From NCBI RefSeq assembly GCF_009733815.1, contig NZ_WNXY01000009.1:124001-188000 (forward strand): 64,000 bases of DNA. Reading direction: 5' to 3'. The DNA comes from Pseudactinotalea suaedae (GTDB lineage: Bacteria; Actinomycetota; Actinomycetes; Actinomycetales; Beutenbergiaceae). The notes under the pieces were generated by a model. That model saw nothing but the letters and a program-made list of their open reading frames with translations, had not been told where the DNA came from and made no database searches. This document shows, one piece after another, positions 24,326 through 30,006 of this stretch; the stretch's first letter is position 1, and every line of letters starts with the position of its first letter. The position numbers and the translations under genes were made by a program.

Positions 24326-25045
24326 ATGTCCAGCTCGACCCGCACCGCCCGCCCCCTCATCCCGACCCGCGCCGGCACCGTCAGCACCCCGCAGGAGCTG
24401 ACCGCCGACCGCGTCACGAAGTCCCTCCTCGGATACGGCGTCATCGCCGGTCCGATCTACGTCGTCACGTCCCTGGTCCAGGCCTCGTTGCGCGACGGGT
24501 TCGACCTCACCCGCCACGCGTGGAGCCAGCTCGCGCTCGGTGACCCGGGCTGGGTCCAGGTCGTCAACCTCGTGCTGACGGGCGCCATGCTGATCGCGTT
24601 CGCCGTCGGGCTCGCCCGCGCCCTGGTCACCGGGCCGGGCTCGCGCTGGTCACCGCTCCTGATCGGCGTGTTCGGTCTGAGCATGATCGTCTCGGGGATC
24701 TTCAAGGTCGACCCGGCGGGCGGCTTCCCTGACGGCCTTCCCACACCGGCGACGATCAGCACGAGCGGCCTCGTCCACCTGGGCGCGGGCGCGGTCGGCT
24801 TCACCTGCCTGACGGCAGGACTGCTCGTGCTCGCCCGCCGCCTCTCTCGTGAGGGCTTCTCGGCCCTGGCGGTCTGGACCAGGGTCGTCGCCGTCGCGTT
24901 CCTCGTGACGTTCGTCGGGATGGCCTCGACGGCGTCGGGCGGGGCAGGGATCATCGCGTTCGTCGTCGCCGTGGTCGCCGTGATGGCGCTGCTGTCGGTG
25001 CTGGCGGTGCACCGCTACCGCCAGATGCCCAACACCGATGGCTGA
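24326..25045 (+). CDS. DUF998 family membrane protein
   Basis: A 239-residue polytopic membrane protein with about six segments. After a 35-residue basic cytoplasmic start come YGVIAGPIYVVTSLVQASLR, DGFDLTRHAWSQLALGDPGW (the conserved DUF998 loop), VNLVLTGAMLIAFAVGLARA, LLIGVFGLSMIVSGIFKVDP and GGFPDGLPTPATIS, all typical of the family. DUF998 proteins have no established biochemical role. GGAGG lies six bases before ATG 24326. It is followed after 61 bases by the DGPF/ECF42 gene pair on the same strand and could be a target or partner of that sigma factor (inference). Confidence 0.87.
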   Translation: MSSSTRTARPLIPTRAGTVSTPQELTADRVTKSLLGYGVIAGPIYVVTSLVQASLRDGFDLTRHAWSQLALGDPGWVQVVNLVLTGAMLIAFAVGLARALVTGPGSRWSPLLIGVFGLSMIVSGIFKVDPAGGFPDGLPTPATISTSGLVHLGAGAVGFTCLTAGLLVLARRLSREGFSALAVWTRVVAVAFLVTFVGMASTASGGAGIIAFVVAVVAVMALLSVLAVHRYRQMPNTDG

Positions 25046-25106
25046 AACCCCACCCGCAGCATTCCCACCACCGACACAATCACACCGTTCGAAGGAGAAG
25101 AGAGAG

Positions 25107-25493
25107 ATGCGATACCTCGTCGTCCTGGAAGGCAACGCCCCCGCCACTCCCCCGCCCGCAGCGCTGATGGAAGGCATCATGAAGCTGGGCGAGGAGGCCG
25201 CCCGAGCAGGCGTCATGCTCGACAACGGTGGCCTGGCTCCCAGTGCCGCCGGGGCCCTCGTCAGCGCGGACGCCACCGGCGTCACCATCACCGACGGCCC
25301 CTTCGCCGAGTCGAAGGAGATGATCAGCTACAGCCTCTACGACACCCGCACCAAGGAGGAGGCGGTCGAGTGGACCCGGCGGTTCATGGCCCTGCACGCC
25401 GAGCACTGGCCGGAGTGGACCGGCGAGGCTCGGGTGCTCAAGGTCATGGGACCTGAGGACTTCGCCGCACCGCCGGCCGGCGTCCCGAGCTGA
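25107..25493 (+). CDS. YCII-related (DGPF domain) protein
   Basis: A 128-residue ferredoxin-like-fold protein with the hallmark ITDGPFAESKEMISYSLYD (DGPF motif) and an N-terminal MRYLVVLEGN strand. DGPF/YCII proteins are the conserved genomic partners of ECF42 sigma factors; YCII relatives have weak chlorohydrolase/dehydratase-like activity, but the role here is not known. AAGGAG precedes the ATG at 25107 by about ten bases. Its TGA is followed directly by the GTG of the sigma gene with no gap, so the two are translationally linked. It ends with a short flexible tail (DFAAPPAGVPS). Confidence 0.92.
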   Translation: MRYLVVLEGNAPATPPPAALMEGIMKLGEEAARAGVMLDNGGLAPSAAGALVSADATGVTITDGPFAESKEMISYSLYDTRTKEEAVEWTRRFMALHAEHWPEWTGEARVLKVMGPEDFAAPPAGVPS

Positions 25494-26771
25494 GTGACGC
25501 AGGCGAACCTGGCAGAGACCGGGCGAGCCGCCGTCGAGGCGATCTGGCGGATCGAGTCCGCCCGGTTGATCGCGGCGCTCGCCCGGTACACCGGTGACCT
25601 CTCGCTGGCGGAGGAGCTGGCTCAGGACGCCCTCGTCACCGCCCTCGAGCAGTGGCCCACCACAGGTCCGCCACCCAACCCCGGAGGTTGGCTCATGACC
25701 ACCGCGAAACGTCGCGCGATCGATCGGTTCCGCCGCGACGCCCTCCATCGTCGCGCCGTCGAGACCCTCGGCGGCCAGACCGACGAGCACACCGGGACCA
25801 CCGAGCACGACGACGTCGAGACCCGTCTGGACGACCCGGTCGGTGACGACGAGCTCGCACTGCTGTTCGCGGCCTGCCACCCCGACCTCACCCGCGAGTA
25901 CCGCGTCACCCTGACGCTGCGCTGCCTCGGCGGGCTGAGCACCGACGAGATCGGCCGCGCCTTCCTCATCCCCAGCAGCGCAGCCGGGCAGCGCGTCTCA
26001 CGCGCGAAGAAGGCCCTGCGCGATCGGGGGATCCAGCTCGACGCCCCCACCGCTGCCGAGCTGCCGCAGCGGCTCGACTCGGTGCTCGAGGTGATCTACC
26101 TCGTCTTCAACGAGGGCTACAGCGCCACCGCAGGCGACGACTGGATGCGGCCGGAGCTCAGCCGGGAGGCGTTGCGGCTGGCGCGTCGGACAGCGGCCCT
26201 GCTGCCGGACGTGGCCGAGGTGCACGGCCTGCTCGCGCTGCTGGAGCTCACCCAGGCGCGTGCGGCCGCTCGCACCGACGAGTCCGGCGCACCGGTCCTC
26301 CTGCAGGACCAGGACCGACGGCGGTGGGACCGTGGCCACATCACGCGCGGTCTCGCGTCGCTCGCCCGGGTCCACCGGCTCGGCACGGTGGGCCGCTACG
26401 GCGTGCAGGCGGCGATCGCCGGTGCTCACAGCACCGCGGTCAGCGCGGCGGAGACCGACTGGGTCCAGATCGCCGCGCTGTACGACGTGCTCGAGCAGCT
26501 CTGGAGCAACCCGGTCGTCACGCTCAACCGCGCGGTCGCGCACGGCCACGCGCACGGCGCGGAGGCGGGCCTCGCGATCCTGGCCACCCTCCCGGCCGAC
26601 AGGCTCGCCGACTATCCCCAGCGCTCCGCCGTCGAGGGTGAGCTGCTGCTCATGGCCGGTCGGCACCGCGACGCCGTCGCTGCGCTCGAACGCGCAGCCC
26701 GCGAGACCGGCAACGGTGCCGAGCGCGCGCTCCTCGAGCGCCGCGCGGCGCAGGCTTCTCGGCTAGGTTGA
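25494..26771 (+). CDS. ECF42-type extracytoplasmic-function sigma factor
   Basis: A 425-residue sigma factor. Region 2 is near the start ([20 protein letters not shown] then [20 protein letters not shown]), and region 4 includes [20 protein letters not shown] and [15 protein letters not shown]-terminal extension of about 220 residues contains [20 protein letters not shown] and helical repeat-like sequence. This long extension and the adjacent DGPF gene are the two features of group ECF42, which lacks a classical anti-sigma factor. The extension is needed for activity in studied members. The GTG start abuts the DGPF stop. Which genes it reads is unknown. The gene end overlaps the -10 region proposed for the mycothiol dehydrogenase gene. 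Confidence 0.92.
26764..26769 (+). promoter_or_regulatory. Putative -10 element for a leaderless mscR mRNA
   Basis: TAGGTT fits the actinobacterial TANNNT -10 consensus and ends six bases before the mscR ATG, so transcription would begin at or next to the start codon. No Shine-Dalgarno sequence is present. It overlaps the end of the sigma gene. Confidence 0.5.
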
Positions 26772-26775
26772 CGGC

Positions 26776-27873
26776 ATGCCACAGACTGTCCAGGGCGTCA
26801 TCGCCCGCAGCAAGGATGCCCCGGTCGAGGTCGTGCCGATCGTCGTCCCGGACCCGGGCCCAGGCGAGGTGATCGTGAAGGTGCAGGCGTGCGGCGTCTG
26901 CCACACCGACCTCCACTACCGCGACGGCGGGATCAACGACGACTTCCCGTTCCTGCTCGGCCACGAGGCCGCGGGCGTGGTGGAGACGATCGGCGACGGT
27001 GTCACCGAGGTCGCGGTGGGCGACTACGTGATCCTCAACTGGCGCGCGGTCTGCGGGCAGTGCCGCGCGTGCCTGCGCGGACGCCCCTGGTACTGCTTCA
27101 ACACGCACAACGCGGCGCAGAGGATGACGCTCGAGGACGGCACCGAGCTCTCCCCCGCGCTCGGGATCGGCGCCTTCATCGAGAAGACGCTCGTGCACGC
27201 GGGCCAGTGCACGAAGGTCGACCCCGAGGCGGCCCCCGAGGTCGCCGGGCTGCTCGGCTGCGGCGTGATGGCGGGCATCGGCGCCGCCATCAACACGGGC
27301 AACGTGGGCCGCGGCGACAGCGTGGCGGTCTTCGGCTGCGGCGGCGTCGGCGATGCCGCGATCATGGGCGCCCGGCTCGCGGGCGCGGCGACGATCATCG
27401 CCGTCGACCTCGACGACACCAAGCTCGAGTGGGCCACCGACATGGGCGCCACCCACACGATCAACTCCGGCCAGACCGATCCGGTCGAAGCCATCCAGGC
27501 CCTGACCGGTGGTCACGGCGCCGACGTGGTGATCGACGCCGTCGGCATCCCGAAGACCTACGAGCAGGCCTTCTACGCACGCGACCTGGCCGGCACCGTC
27601 GTGCTGGTCGGCGTGCCGAACCCGACGATGACGATCGAGCTGCCGCTGCTCGACGTGTTCGGTCGCGGCGGCTCCCTGAAGTCCTCCTGGTACGGCGACT
27701 GCCTGCCCAGCCGCGACTTCCCGATGCTCATCGACCTGTACCTGCAGGGTCGCCTCCCGCTCGAGAAGTTCGTGTCCGAGAAGATCGGGCTCGGTGACGT
27801 CGAGGCGGCCTTCACGAAGATGCACGACGGCGGCGTGCTCCGTTCCGTCGTGATGCTCGAGGAGGCGATCTGA
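26776..27873 (+). CDS. mscR: S-(hydroxymethyl)mycothiol dehydrogenase
   Basis: A 365-residue zinc-dependent medium-chain alcohol dehydrogenase that oxidises S-hydroxymethylmycothiol, the adduct of formaldehyde and mycothiol, with NAD. Catalytic zinc ligands are in [14 protein letters not shown] and GHEAAGVVE. Structural zinc cysteines are in [15 protein letters not shown]. The NAD fold is [20 protein letters not shown]. The [13 protein letters not shown] stretch is typical of the mycothiol-dependent enzymes rather than the glutathione ones. Its stop shares one base with the ATG of the MBL hydrolase that completes the pathway. The presence of this gene supports actinobacterial origin. Confidence 0.94.
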
Positions 27874-28499
27874 TGACGCTCCGAGTAGAGCGCGTGGTGA
27901 CGTCGGGGACGTTCTCGCTCGACGGCGGGACCTGGGACGTGGACAACAACGTCTGGGTCGTGGGTGATGAGACCGAGTGCGTCATCATCGACGCCGCTCA
28001 CGACGCGACGGCGATCCTCGCCGCCGTCGGGGACCGGGACGTGGTGGCGATCCTGCTGACCCACGCCCACGACGACCACATCGCTGCCGCCCTCGAGCTG
28101 GCGGAGACCACCGAGGCCGAGGTGTGGCTGCACCCCGAGGACCGGATGCTGTGGGACGTCGTGCACGACCGGGCTCCCGACGGCGAGCTCGCCGACGGCC
28201 AGCGGTTCGCCGTCGGCGGCGAGGACCTCGTGGTGCTGCACACGCCGGGCCACAGCCCCGGCGCGGTGTGCTTCTCGCTCCCCGGCCTGCACCGCGTCTT
28301 CACGGGAGACACGCTGTTCAACGGCGGTCCCGGCGCGACCGGCCGCTCCTACTCCGACTTCCCCACGATCGTGGACTCGATCACGGACAAGCTGCTCAGC
28401 CTGCCGCCCGAGACGACCGTCCACACCGGCCACGGCGACGACACCTCGATCGGCGCCGAGGCGCCGCACCGGCAGGAGTGGATCGACCGGGGCCACTGA
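27873..28499 (+). CDS. MBL-fold hydrolase of the mycothiol formaldehyde pathway
   Basis: A 208-residue metallo-beta-lactamase-fold hydrolase of the glyoxalase II type. Metal ligands are in LTHAHDDHIAAALEL (HxHxDH), HTPGHSPGAVCF, FTGDTLFNGGPGATGRSYSD and TGHGDDTSIG. Genes of this family sit next to mscR in many actinobacteria and are thought to hydrolyse S-formylmycothiol to formate and mycothiol; direct proof is limited. It is coupled to mscR by a one-base overlap of stop and start (TGATG). The protein ends PHRQEWIDRGH, complete. Confidence 0.88.
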   Translation: MTLRVERVVTSGTFSLDGGTWDVDNNVWVVGDETECVIIDAAHDATAILAAVGDRDVVAILLTHAHDDHIAAALELAETTEAEVWLHPEDRMLWDVVHDRAPDGELADGQRFAVGGEDLVVLHTPGHSPGAVCFSLPGLHRVFTGDTLFNGGPGATGRSYSDFPTIVDSITDKLLSLPPETTVHTGHGDDTSIGAEAPHRQEWIDRGH

Positions 28500-28523: not shown

Positions 28524-29492
28524 CTACTCCCCGCCCGCGCCCCGGGCGGCGCGCCGGGCCTCCTGCCAGCGCCGTCGCATCTCCCCGAGGTCGCCGACCG
28601 GACCGAGGTGCGCGAGCTTCTCGGGTGAGGTGACCGACCGGATGCCGATGACCTGGCCGTCGAGGATCTCCAGCGACCAGGTGCCGAGCACCCGACCATC
28701 GACATCGAGGATCATCGCGCCCGGGTGCCCGTTGACCTCGCGCCGCCGCAGCGAGGCGCCCGCCGCGAGGAGGGACGGCACGGTCGCCAGCAGCAGGCGT
28801 GCGGCCTGCAGCGCACCGAAGGTCCCGCCGGTGCCGCCTGCCACGCCGCCGCTGTCGTTGACGGCGTGCACGTCCTCGGCCAGCAGCGACCGCAGCGCCT
28901 CCAGCTCGCCGCCGGCCAGCGCGTCGAAGAACCGGTCGGCGAGCTCCTCCCGCTTGCGGCGGTCGGCCTCGAAGCGGGTGCGGCCCTCCGCCATGTGCCG
29001 TCGGGCGCGTCCGCCGAGCTGACGGCAGGCCGCCTCCGAGCGACCCACCGCGGTGGCGACGTCGGCGTAGGAGAAGCCGAACACCTCGTGCATGACGAAC
29101 ACCGCACGCTCCAACGCGCTGAGCCGCTCGAGCAGCACCAGCGCGGCCATCGAGACCGAGTCGGCGAGCTCGGCCGCCCGGGCGGGGTCGCCCTCGAGAA
29201 CGGCGGGCTCCTCCTCCAGGCCGTCGGTGAGCAGCGGCTCGGGGAACCACGGTCCGACGTAGGACTCGCGCCGCACGCGCGCCGAGCGCAGCACGTCGAT
29301 CGAGATCCGCGTGACGACGGTCGCCAGGTAGGAGCGCAGCGACTCCGGCACGACATCGGCCGCCTCGTACCGCAGCCAGGTCTCCTGCACCGCGTCCTCG
29401 GCCTCGCTGACGCTGCCCAGGATCCGGTAGGAGATCGAGAACAGCAACCCTCGTAGCTCTTCGAAAGCCTCCACATCGGCGATCGTGACCAC
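28524..29492 (-). CDS. sigJ: ECF41-type sigma factor (SigJ-like) with SnoaL-like C-terminal domain
   Basis: A 322-residue sigma factor. Region 2 is FEELRGLLFSISYRILGSVS and EAEDAVQETWLRYEA; region 4 is FVMHEVFGFSYADVATAVGR and SEAACRQLGGRARRHM. After it comes a SnoaL_2/NTF2-like domain (FFDALAGGELEALRSLLAED to VTSPEKLAHL), the fused regulatory domain that replaces an anti-sigma factor in ECF41. Start choice: an ECF41-type promoter (TGTCACA, 16 bases, CGTC) lies at 29534-29508 on this strand, so the upstream GTG at 29549 would fall inside the promoter. GTG 29492, with a very short leader, fits. It is divergent from a DoxX gene that has a mirrored promoter. Confidence 0.87.
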   Translation of the reverse strand: MVTIADVEAFEELRGLLFSISYRILGSVSEAEDAVQETWLRYEAADVVPESLRSYLATVVTRISIDVLRSARVRRESYVGPWFPEPLLTDGLEEEPAVLEGDPARAAELADSVSMAALVLLERLSALERAVFVMHEVFGFSYADVATAVGRSEAACRQLGGRARRHMAEGRTRFEADRRKREELADRFFDALAGGELEALRSLLAEDVHAVNDSGGVAGGTGGTFGALQAARLLLATVPSLLAAGASLRRREVNGHPGAMILDVDGRVLGTWSLEILDGQVIGIRSVTSPEKLAHLGPVGDLGEMRRRWQEARRAARGAGGE

Positions 29493-29507
29493 CTCCTCGA
29501 CACCTGG

Positions 29508-29534
29508 GACGAGACAGCCCTCACGAGTGTGACA
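29508..29534 (-). promoter_or_regulatory. ECF41 promoter of the sigma gene (autoregulatory)
   Basis: Minus strand: -35 TGTCACA (29534-29528), spacer of exactly 16, -10 CGTC (29511-29508). This is the published ECF41 consensus TGTCACA-N16-CGTC. Transcription would start about eight bases before GTG 29492. Confidence 0.72.
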
Positions 29535-29543
29535 CGCGCCCCG

Positions 29544-29571
29544 TGTCACGTCGGGCGGGTGCTGTCTCGTC
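29544..29571 (+). promoter_or_regulatory. ECF41 promoter of the DoxX gene
   Basis: Plus strand: TGTCACG (29544-29550), spacer 17, CGTC (29568-29571). Together with the mirrored -35 on the other strand it forms a perfect 8-base inverted repeat, GTGACACG/CGTGTCAC, at 29529-29549. The repeat is therefore explained by two back-to-back -35 elements rather than by a repressor site. Confidence 0.65.
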
Positions 29572-29622
29572 CTCGATCACGGCACCAGCAGAGGGCTGGG
29601 TGCCTCGAGCGAAGGAGGACCT

Positions 29623-30006
29623 ATGAACACCGCCCTGTGGATCGTCACCGCGCTGCTGAGCCTGGGCTACGGAGTCGGCGGGCTGGCCATGCTCATCATG
29701 AGCCCCACGCGGTTCCGCAACATCTCGTCGGGCCAGCACTACGTGGACGACCTGCCCCGCAACGCGACCAAGGTCATCGGGGTCATGAAGCTGCTCGCGG
29801 TGGCGGGCATGCTGCTGCCGCCGCTGCTCGGCGTGGCGACGTGGCTGGTCCCGCTCGCCGCGCTCGGCCTGGTGCTGCTCATGACCGGTGCGGCGACCGT
29901 GCGCATGGTGCGCCGCGAGTGGGTGTCGTTCTTCGGTGACCTCGTGTACCTGTCTCTCGCCGCGTTCGTCGCCTGGGGGCGGTTCGTGGCGGTGCCGTTC
30001 GGCTGA
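29623..30006 (+). CDS. DoxX-family membrane protein
   Basis: A 127-residue protein with four predicted membrane helices (LWIVTALLSLGYGVGGLAML; VIGVMKLLAVAGMLLPPLLG; LVPLAALGLVLLMTGAATV; VYLSLAAFVAWGRFVAVPF). DoxX-like proteins are frequent partners of ECF41 sigma factors, along with carboxymuconolactone decarboxylases and oxidoreductases. They are linked to thiol and oxidant stress in mycobacteria. AAGGAGG is the ribosome binding site, seven bases before the ATG. The divergent ECF41 promoter upstream makes it the most likely direct sigma target in the window. Confidence 0.88.
   Translation: MNTALWIVTALLSLGYGVGGLAMLIMSPTRFRNISSGQHYVDDLPRNATKVIGVMKLLAVAGMLLPPLLGVATWLVPLAALGLVLLMTGAATVRMVRREWVSFFGDLVYLSLAAFVAWGRFVAVPFG

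Follow-up and report, generated by a model that had tools for sequence, protein, structure and literature searches.

Divergent ECF41 loci and DoxX proteins

The ECF41 sigma factors, which have their largest share in the actinobacteria, carry two hallmark motifs, YVGPWLPEP in the linker and NPDKL in the distal part. In ECF41 members other than the one presented here, the C-terminal domain limits the activity of the sigma factor. For the homolog of B. licheniformis, removal of the whole extension did not leave an effective sigma factor (Wecke et al., 2012, as summarized in a citing paper).

Divergent loci of the type <ECF< >COE>, where COE stands for carboxymuconolactone decarboxylase, oxidoreductase and epimerase, were described by Wecke et al. 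(2012; PMC3426412). The sections of that paper considered here list 55 such loci, with the motif present before the ECF gene in 36 and before the COE gene in 41. They further give the consensus TGTCACA-16±1-CGTC, supported by 5′-RACE in two organisms, and name the COE genes as the only detectable ECF41 targets. A divergent ECF41 double-promoter layout is therefore not new.

DoxX proteins are known from operons under the control of other ECF groups, namely RpoE2 of H. influenzae, SigE of N. meningitidis and sigma F of C. crescentus (PMC7907618, PMC3511200). Their likeness to the sigJ locus presented here lies in a DoxX-like membrane protein as ECF-controlled output, there of oxidative or metal stress. 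They differ from it in the ECF group and in their four-gene operons with DUF692/DUF2063 proteins, and a SnoaL extension is not reported for their sigma factors in these papers. In M. tuberculosis, DoxX has been linked to thiol/mycothiol redox homeostasis, as cited in PMC7907618.

Here, a stretch of 64,000 nucleotides from Pseudactinotalea suaedae (the window) was analyzed, in which sigJ lies divergent to doxX. This locus shares the sigma group, the −35/−10 consensus and the spacing with the published ECF41 loci, where the motif also often precedes both divergent genes. In contrast, the predicted target is a DoxX_2 protein instead of a COE enzyme, and neither DoxX nor an extended −10 element appears in the sections of PMC3426412 considered. 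What is added to the known layout are the DoxX target class, the extended −10 element and a corrected start codon.

The sigma factor and its gene neighborhood

The two genes and the region between them are:

28524-29483, minus strand: sigJ, ECF41-type sigma factor with a C-terminal SnoaL/NTF2-like extension (Pfam, NCBIfam, homology)
29484-29622: intergenic region between the leftward sigJ and the rightward doxX
29614-29618, plus strand: ribosome-binding site GGAGG of doxX (sequence)
29623-30006, plus strand: doxX, DoxX_2-family small membrane protein of 127 aa (Pfam PF13564, E 7.5e-17)

The sigJ product contains sigma2 and sigma4 domains and no sigma3 domain (Pfam PF04542, PF08281). It scores above the cut-off of the NCBIfam SigJ model NF007214 and below that of the SigX4 model (306 vs. 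323). It is homologous over its full length, including the C-terminal SnoaL-like domain, to SigJ of M. tuberculosis, whose structure (PDB 5xe7) aligns with residues 3-291 at an E-value of 8.7e-45. The extension was assigned from this alignment together with NF007214; the Pfam SnoaL_2 model does not match the sigJ product and gives a sub-threshold match in a 61-62% relative. The linker motif reads YVGPWFPEP instead of YVGPWLPEP, and SPEKL replaces the distal NPDKL. Judged by these matches, the product is an ECF41/SigJ sigma factor.

A gene for an anti-sigma factor is absent beside sigJ, its neighbors being a metallo-hydrolase gene and doxX. The partner is thus not a COE gene but belongs to the DoxX_2 family (PF13564, 61.8 bits at a gathering cut-off of 26.3). 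Since about one third of the ECF41 genes have no COE partner (PMC3426412), such a partner is not a strict hallmark of the group.

The genes for an S-(hydroxymethyl)mycothiol dehydrogenase and the metallo-hydrolase lie next to sigJ at 26776-28499 of the window and are kept beside sigJ and doxX in the congener G002, not in the congener G001. This neighborhood possibly represents a mycothiol link to DoxX. A second self-regulated ECF system is located 2 kb from sigJ at 25038-26771, where the gene for a YCII/DGPF-like protein precedes that for a DUF6596-containing ECF sigma factor (ECF42 type).

The predicted divergent promoter pair

Two predicted ECF41 promoters are found in the intergenic region, one for each gene. 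Their elements and the repeats that they form are:

29534-29508, minus strand: sigJ promoter TGTCACA-N16-CGTC (sequence)
29528-29534, minus strand: −35 element TGTCACA of the sigJ promoter
29508-29511, minus strand: −10 element CGTC of the sigJ promoter; extended form GGCTGTCTCGTC at 29508-29519
29535-29543, no strand: 9-bp linker between both −35 elements, not conserved in length (6-73 bp among relatives) or sequence
29544-29571, plus strand: doxX promoter TGTCACG-N17-CGTC (sequence)
29544-29550, plus strand: −35 element TGTCACG of the doxX promoter
29561-29571, plus strand: extended −10 element GCTGTCTCGTC of the doxX promoter, with CGTC at 29568-29571
29529-29536 and 29542-29549: perfect inverted repeat of 8 bases, GTGACACG / CGTGTCAC, its halves separated by 5 bases
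29507-29518 and 29561-29572: 12-base perfect inverted repeat GGACGAGACAGC / GCTGTCTCGTCC, 12 of 12 bases

Both motifs are present at the positions and with the spacers proposed in the initial annotation. The sigJ side fits the consensus exactly, and the doxX side deviates by the final G of the −35 element and a spacer of 17 bp. That annotation had taken CGTC as the whole −10 element; CGTC is present on both sides, and the element is longer, extending to GCTGTCTCGTC, a form that recurs in actinobacterial ECF41 promoters. Likewise, the 8-base inverted repeat was correctly recognized, while the larger 12-base repeat had been missed. The former arises because the −35 elements stand back to back, 9 bp apart; the latter is due to GCTGTCTCGTCC, or an equivalent of it, being found in each of the −10 regions.

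It is highly probable that the ECF41-type sigma factor has a pair of divergent promoters in this region, of which the leftward one would mediate autoregulation and the rightward one the expression of DoxX, with the SnoaL-like extension holding the activity down. RNA polymerase carrying the sigma factor would read leftward from TGTCACA-N16-CGTC to yield more sigma factor, and rightward from TGTCACG-N17-CGTC to yield DoxX. The sigma factor would presumably be held down by its own C-terminal extension until a signal releases it. Transcription is predicted to begin roughly 5-9 bases beyond CGTC, at around 29503-29499 on the minus and 29576-29580 on the plus strand. Autoregulation and direct control of doxX would both follow from this layout. 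The sites, their conservation, the sigma family and the gene association are observed; promoter activity, autoregulation, the signal and the role of DoxX are inferred. Other sigma factors of the genome could also use both sites.

The start codon of sigJ

The start of sigJ had previously been moved to GTG 29492. This correction is not supported, since the ribosome-binding stretch GAGGAGGTG has that GTG as its final codon and the conserved start maps to ATC 29483. The ribosome-binding site GAGGAGGT (29491-29498, minus strand, from sequence) overlaps GTG 29492 and is conserved before an ATG in the relative L014. In the closest relative (90% identity), the GAGGAGGTG stretch is followed by ATG 6 bases on, where the window has ATC at 29483-29481. 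In 48 of the 60 relatives that have a good ribosome-binding site, the gene starts at the position of ATC 29483, and an equivalent of GTG 29492 was not found among the best-supported starts. Comparison with these relatives makes ATC 29483 the most likely start, the alternatives being GTG 29474 and GTG 29492. ATC is a rare start codon, and a base error or the use of GTG 29474 is possible. If the sigJ transcript starts near 29501, its leader would comprise about 19 nt, which is close to the 22-23 nt of the leaders mapped in two ECF41 targets.

Occurrence in the genome and in relatives

Single TGTCAC..CGTC matches are not significant in the 64-kb window (2 found, 1.87 expected). The back-to-back pair is significant, with no occurrence in 300 dinucleotide shuffles of the window. 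In the whole genome, TGTCACR-N16/17-CGTC matches 11 times. Seven of these matches lie within long reading frames, e.g., of atpD-like and rpoB-like genes, and the other four make up one promoter pair at sigJ and another at a paralog on contig 14, both sigma genes being of the ECF41 type. Matches at promoter positions are thus confined to ECF41-type genes, and within this genome the back-to-back layout is unique to sigJ-doxX. On contig 14 (135955-136016; L001, 3456-3517), the paralog (36% identity) is divergent to a NAD-epimerase-type gene, and the geometry is the opposite one: the sites face each other with the −10 elements 8 bp apart, and one −35 element overlaps the sigma start codon.

The layout is kept in two congeners, in which the sigma gene shows 90 and 75% and doxX 80 and 64% identity. 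An alignment of the three loci shows conservation of both −35 and both −10 elements but not of the linker (9, 11, and 10 bp). As an alternative, the site on the sigma side might be the only functional one, with a decayed or chance copy on the doxX side and another promoter for doxX. The terminal G of the doxX-side −35 element, its 17-bp spacer and the sequence CGTCACA at this −35 element in the congener G001 would fit such a decay. However, the doxX-side −10 and −35 elements are conserved in both congeners as well as in a Georgenia MAG, and better copies of the motif are found at doxX genes elsewhere, which makes a nonfunctional doxX-side site quite unlikely.

The pair was also searched as bare DNA, with a gap of 0-30, across the phylum (396 genomes) and the class (394 genomes). 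In these ~790 genomes the back-to-back pattern occurs at 18 distinct places, and the reversed control at none. At 17 of the 18 places an ECF41-type sigma gene lies at most 0.8 kb away, which argues that the palindrome represents two promoters rather than a repressor site. The partner genes encode epimerases, dehydrogenases and DoxX as well as, in one Micromonospora-like genus, MMPL-family proteins. In the six genomes of this genus (L113-L118), the MMPL-family gene lies divergent to an ECF41-type gene, and the distance between the −35 elements is 6 bp in five of them and 23 bp in the other.

The perfect 8-base repeat, whose halves are separated by 5 bases and which is centered between two divergent genes, could also be read as the operator of a dimeric repressor or activator of the TetR, MarR or CRP type that controls both genes. 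However, the half-sites have no fixed distance in relatives, with values of 6 to 73 bp, whereas the spacing between TGTCAC and CGTC is constant at 16-17. In addition, single half-sites with a full promoter occur where the genes are not divergent (Nocardioides L029-L031; the stand-alone doxX genes L130 and L148), and the sites are found at ECF41 genes, not at repressor genes. Because of the variable distance and the single sites the operator is rejected; it is largely refuted and can hardly be correct. The view of the initial annotation that the repeat is a by-product of two −35 elements is thereby upheld. Separately, a CRP/FNR-type site (TGTGA-N6-TCACA) was ruled out, as its spacing does not fit.

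Within the divergent-promoter explanation, a competition for polymerase can be considered. At a distance of 9 bp between the −35 elements there would be room for a single holoenzyme, so that the layout would set the ratio of sigma factor to DoxX. This geometry and the linkers of 6-12 bp in many relatives speak for it, but linkers of 20-73 bp are equally common, and helical phasing of the linkers (6-73 bp) was not significant (R 0.34, p 0.12). No fixed coupling therefore appears to have been selected. Such competition, a refinement of the two-promoter explanation and not an alternative to it, is conceivable yet rather doubtful.

The extended −10 element

A set of 58 sites before ECF41-type genes or their divergent neighbors was compiled. 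Position 7 of the −35 element is A or G in 57 of them, with the G of the doxX side being less usual (10 of 58). A 17-bp spacer, as on the doxX side, occurs in four of these sites, two of which are the sigJ-doxX locus and its nearest relative. Before CGTC, columns outside the selection are conserved as well, with G, C, and T at −7, −6, and −5 (0.5, 0.7, and 1.2 bits) and T at −1 (1.6 bits).

The pattern TGTCACN-N9/10-GCTGTCTCGTC yields 49 matches in 41 of 394 genomes and one in the control. The downstream genes of 30 loci were inspected, with representative members tested in Pfam and the others assigned from sequence likeness: 14 are of the epimerase or NAD-binding type, seven of the carboxymuconolactone-decarboxylase type, three encode DoxX and two sigma factors. 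The remaining four comprise one short-chain dehydrogenase, one pyridine-nucleotide oxidoreductase and two without assignment. At least three further matches outside these 30 loci also precede doxX.

DoxX_2 genes as predicted ECF41 targets

DoxX homologs (n = 29) were gathered by protein similarity alone. Seven of them have the strict motif at most 150 bp upstream, with ~0.0007 expected per gene (p ~1e-16), and nine if CGTCAC is allowed. The positions cluster 61-66 bp before the start codon. Together with the conservation in the congeners and the genome-wide pair searches, these upstream sites back the proposed ECF41 promoters facing sigJ and doxX.

Eight doxX loci were taken with 14 kb. An ECF41-type gene is missing within ~7 kb in seven of them (e.g., L153, L154, L156, L157) and is present elsewhere in all eight genomes. 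Therefore, stand-alone doxX genes carrying the motif are likely to be under ECF41 control in trans. A quick tree of 123 sigma factors places the doxX-linked ones at scattered positions, requiring 10 changes by parsimony, of which at least six are forced by well supported branches. Motif and gene context thus predict that, in addition to the known COE enzymes, actinobacterial ECF41 sigma factors have DoxX_2 proteins as a recurrent output. DoxX seems not to have been described before as an ECF41 target: a literature search, whose scope ended before the context tables of the 2021 ECF re-classification paper, found no publication naming both ECF41 and DoxX.

Other arrangements are also found upstream of doxX, which is placed under several kinds of regulator in different loci. 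In several actinobacteria of the families f22 and f24 (L124-L129, L144), the gene divergent to doxX (44-52% identical) encodes a SnoaL-bearing ECF sigma factor from a different group, which shows 34-37% identity and is devoid of the YVGPW motif. Here, two facing GGTTAC-N17-CGTCAT sites with the −10 elements inside lie 100-130 bp upstream of doxX, a different promoter type at the same gene pair. At L160 (6588-6650) and L155 (7290-7380), doxX and a second gene, which in L160 is enoyl-CoA-hydratase-like, are separated by back-to-back ECF41-type sites, and no sigma gene is located within 7 kb, so that both represent target-target pairs. Upstream of doxX in L136, L141, L146, L149, and L152, TTGA-N-TTCAA-type palindromes are present instead, as for MarR or ArsR-like regulators.

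Implications

It appears fairly probable that DoxX_2 constitutes a general target class of actinobacterial ECF41 sigma factors, in divergent position and in trans, with the extended −10 element GCTGTCTCGTC, and that SnoaL-type sigma factors and DoxX form a stress module that has been reinvented repeatedly, including a sister group of SnoaL-bearing ECF sigma factors that came to lie divergent to doxX independently and has its own inverted promoter pair. For the regulon, the extended −10 element offers a sharper search pattern, as seen from 49 matches in 394 genomes vs. one in the control. Should DoxX prove to be a genuine and recurrent output, the view in the literature that the control exerted by an ECF41 factor is limited to a COE gene would need to be widened. 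In that case, the link of DoxX to thiol/mycothiol redox homeostasis would provide a testable lead to the signal.
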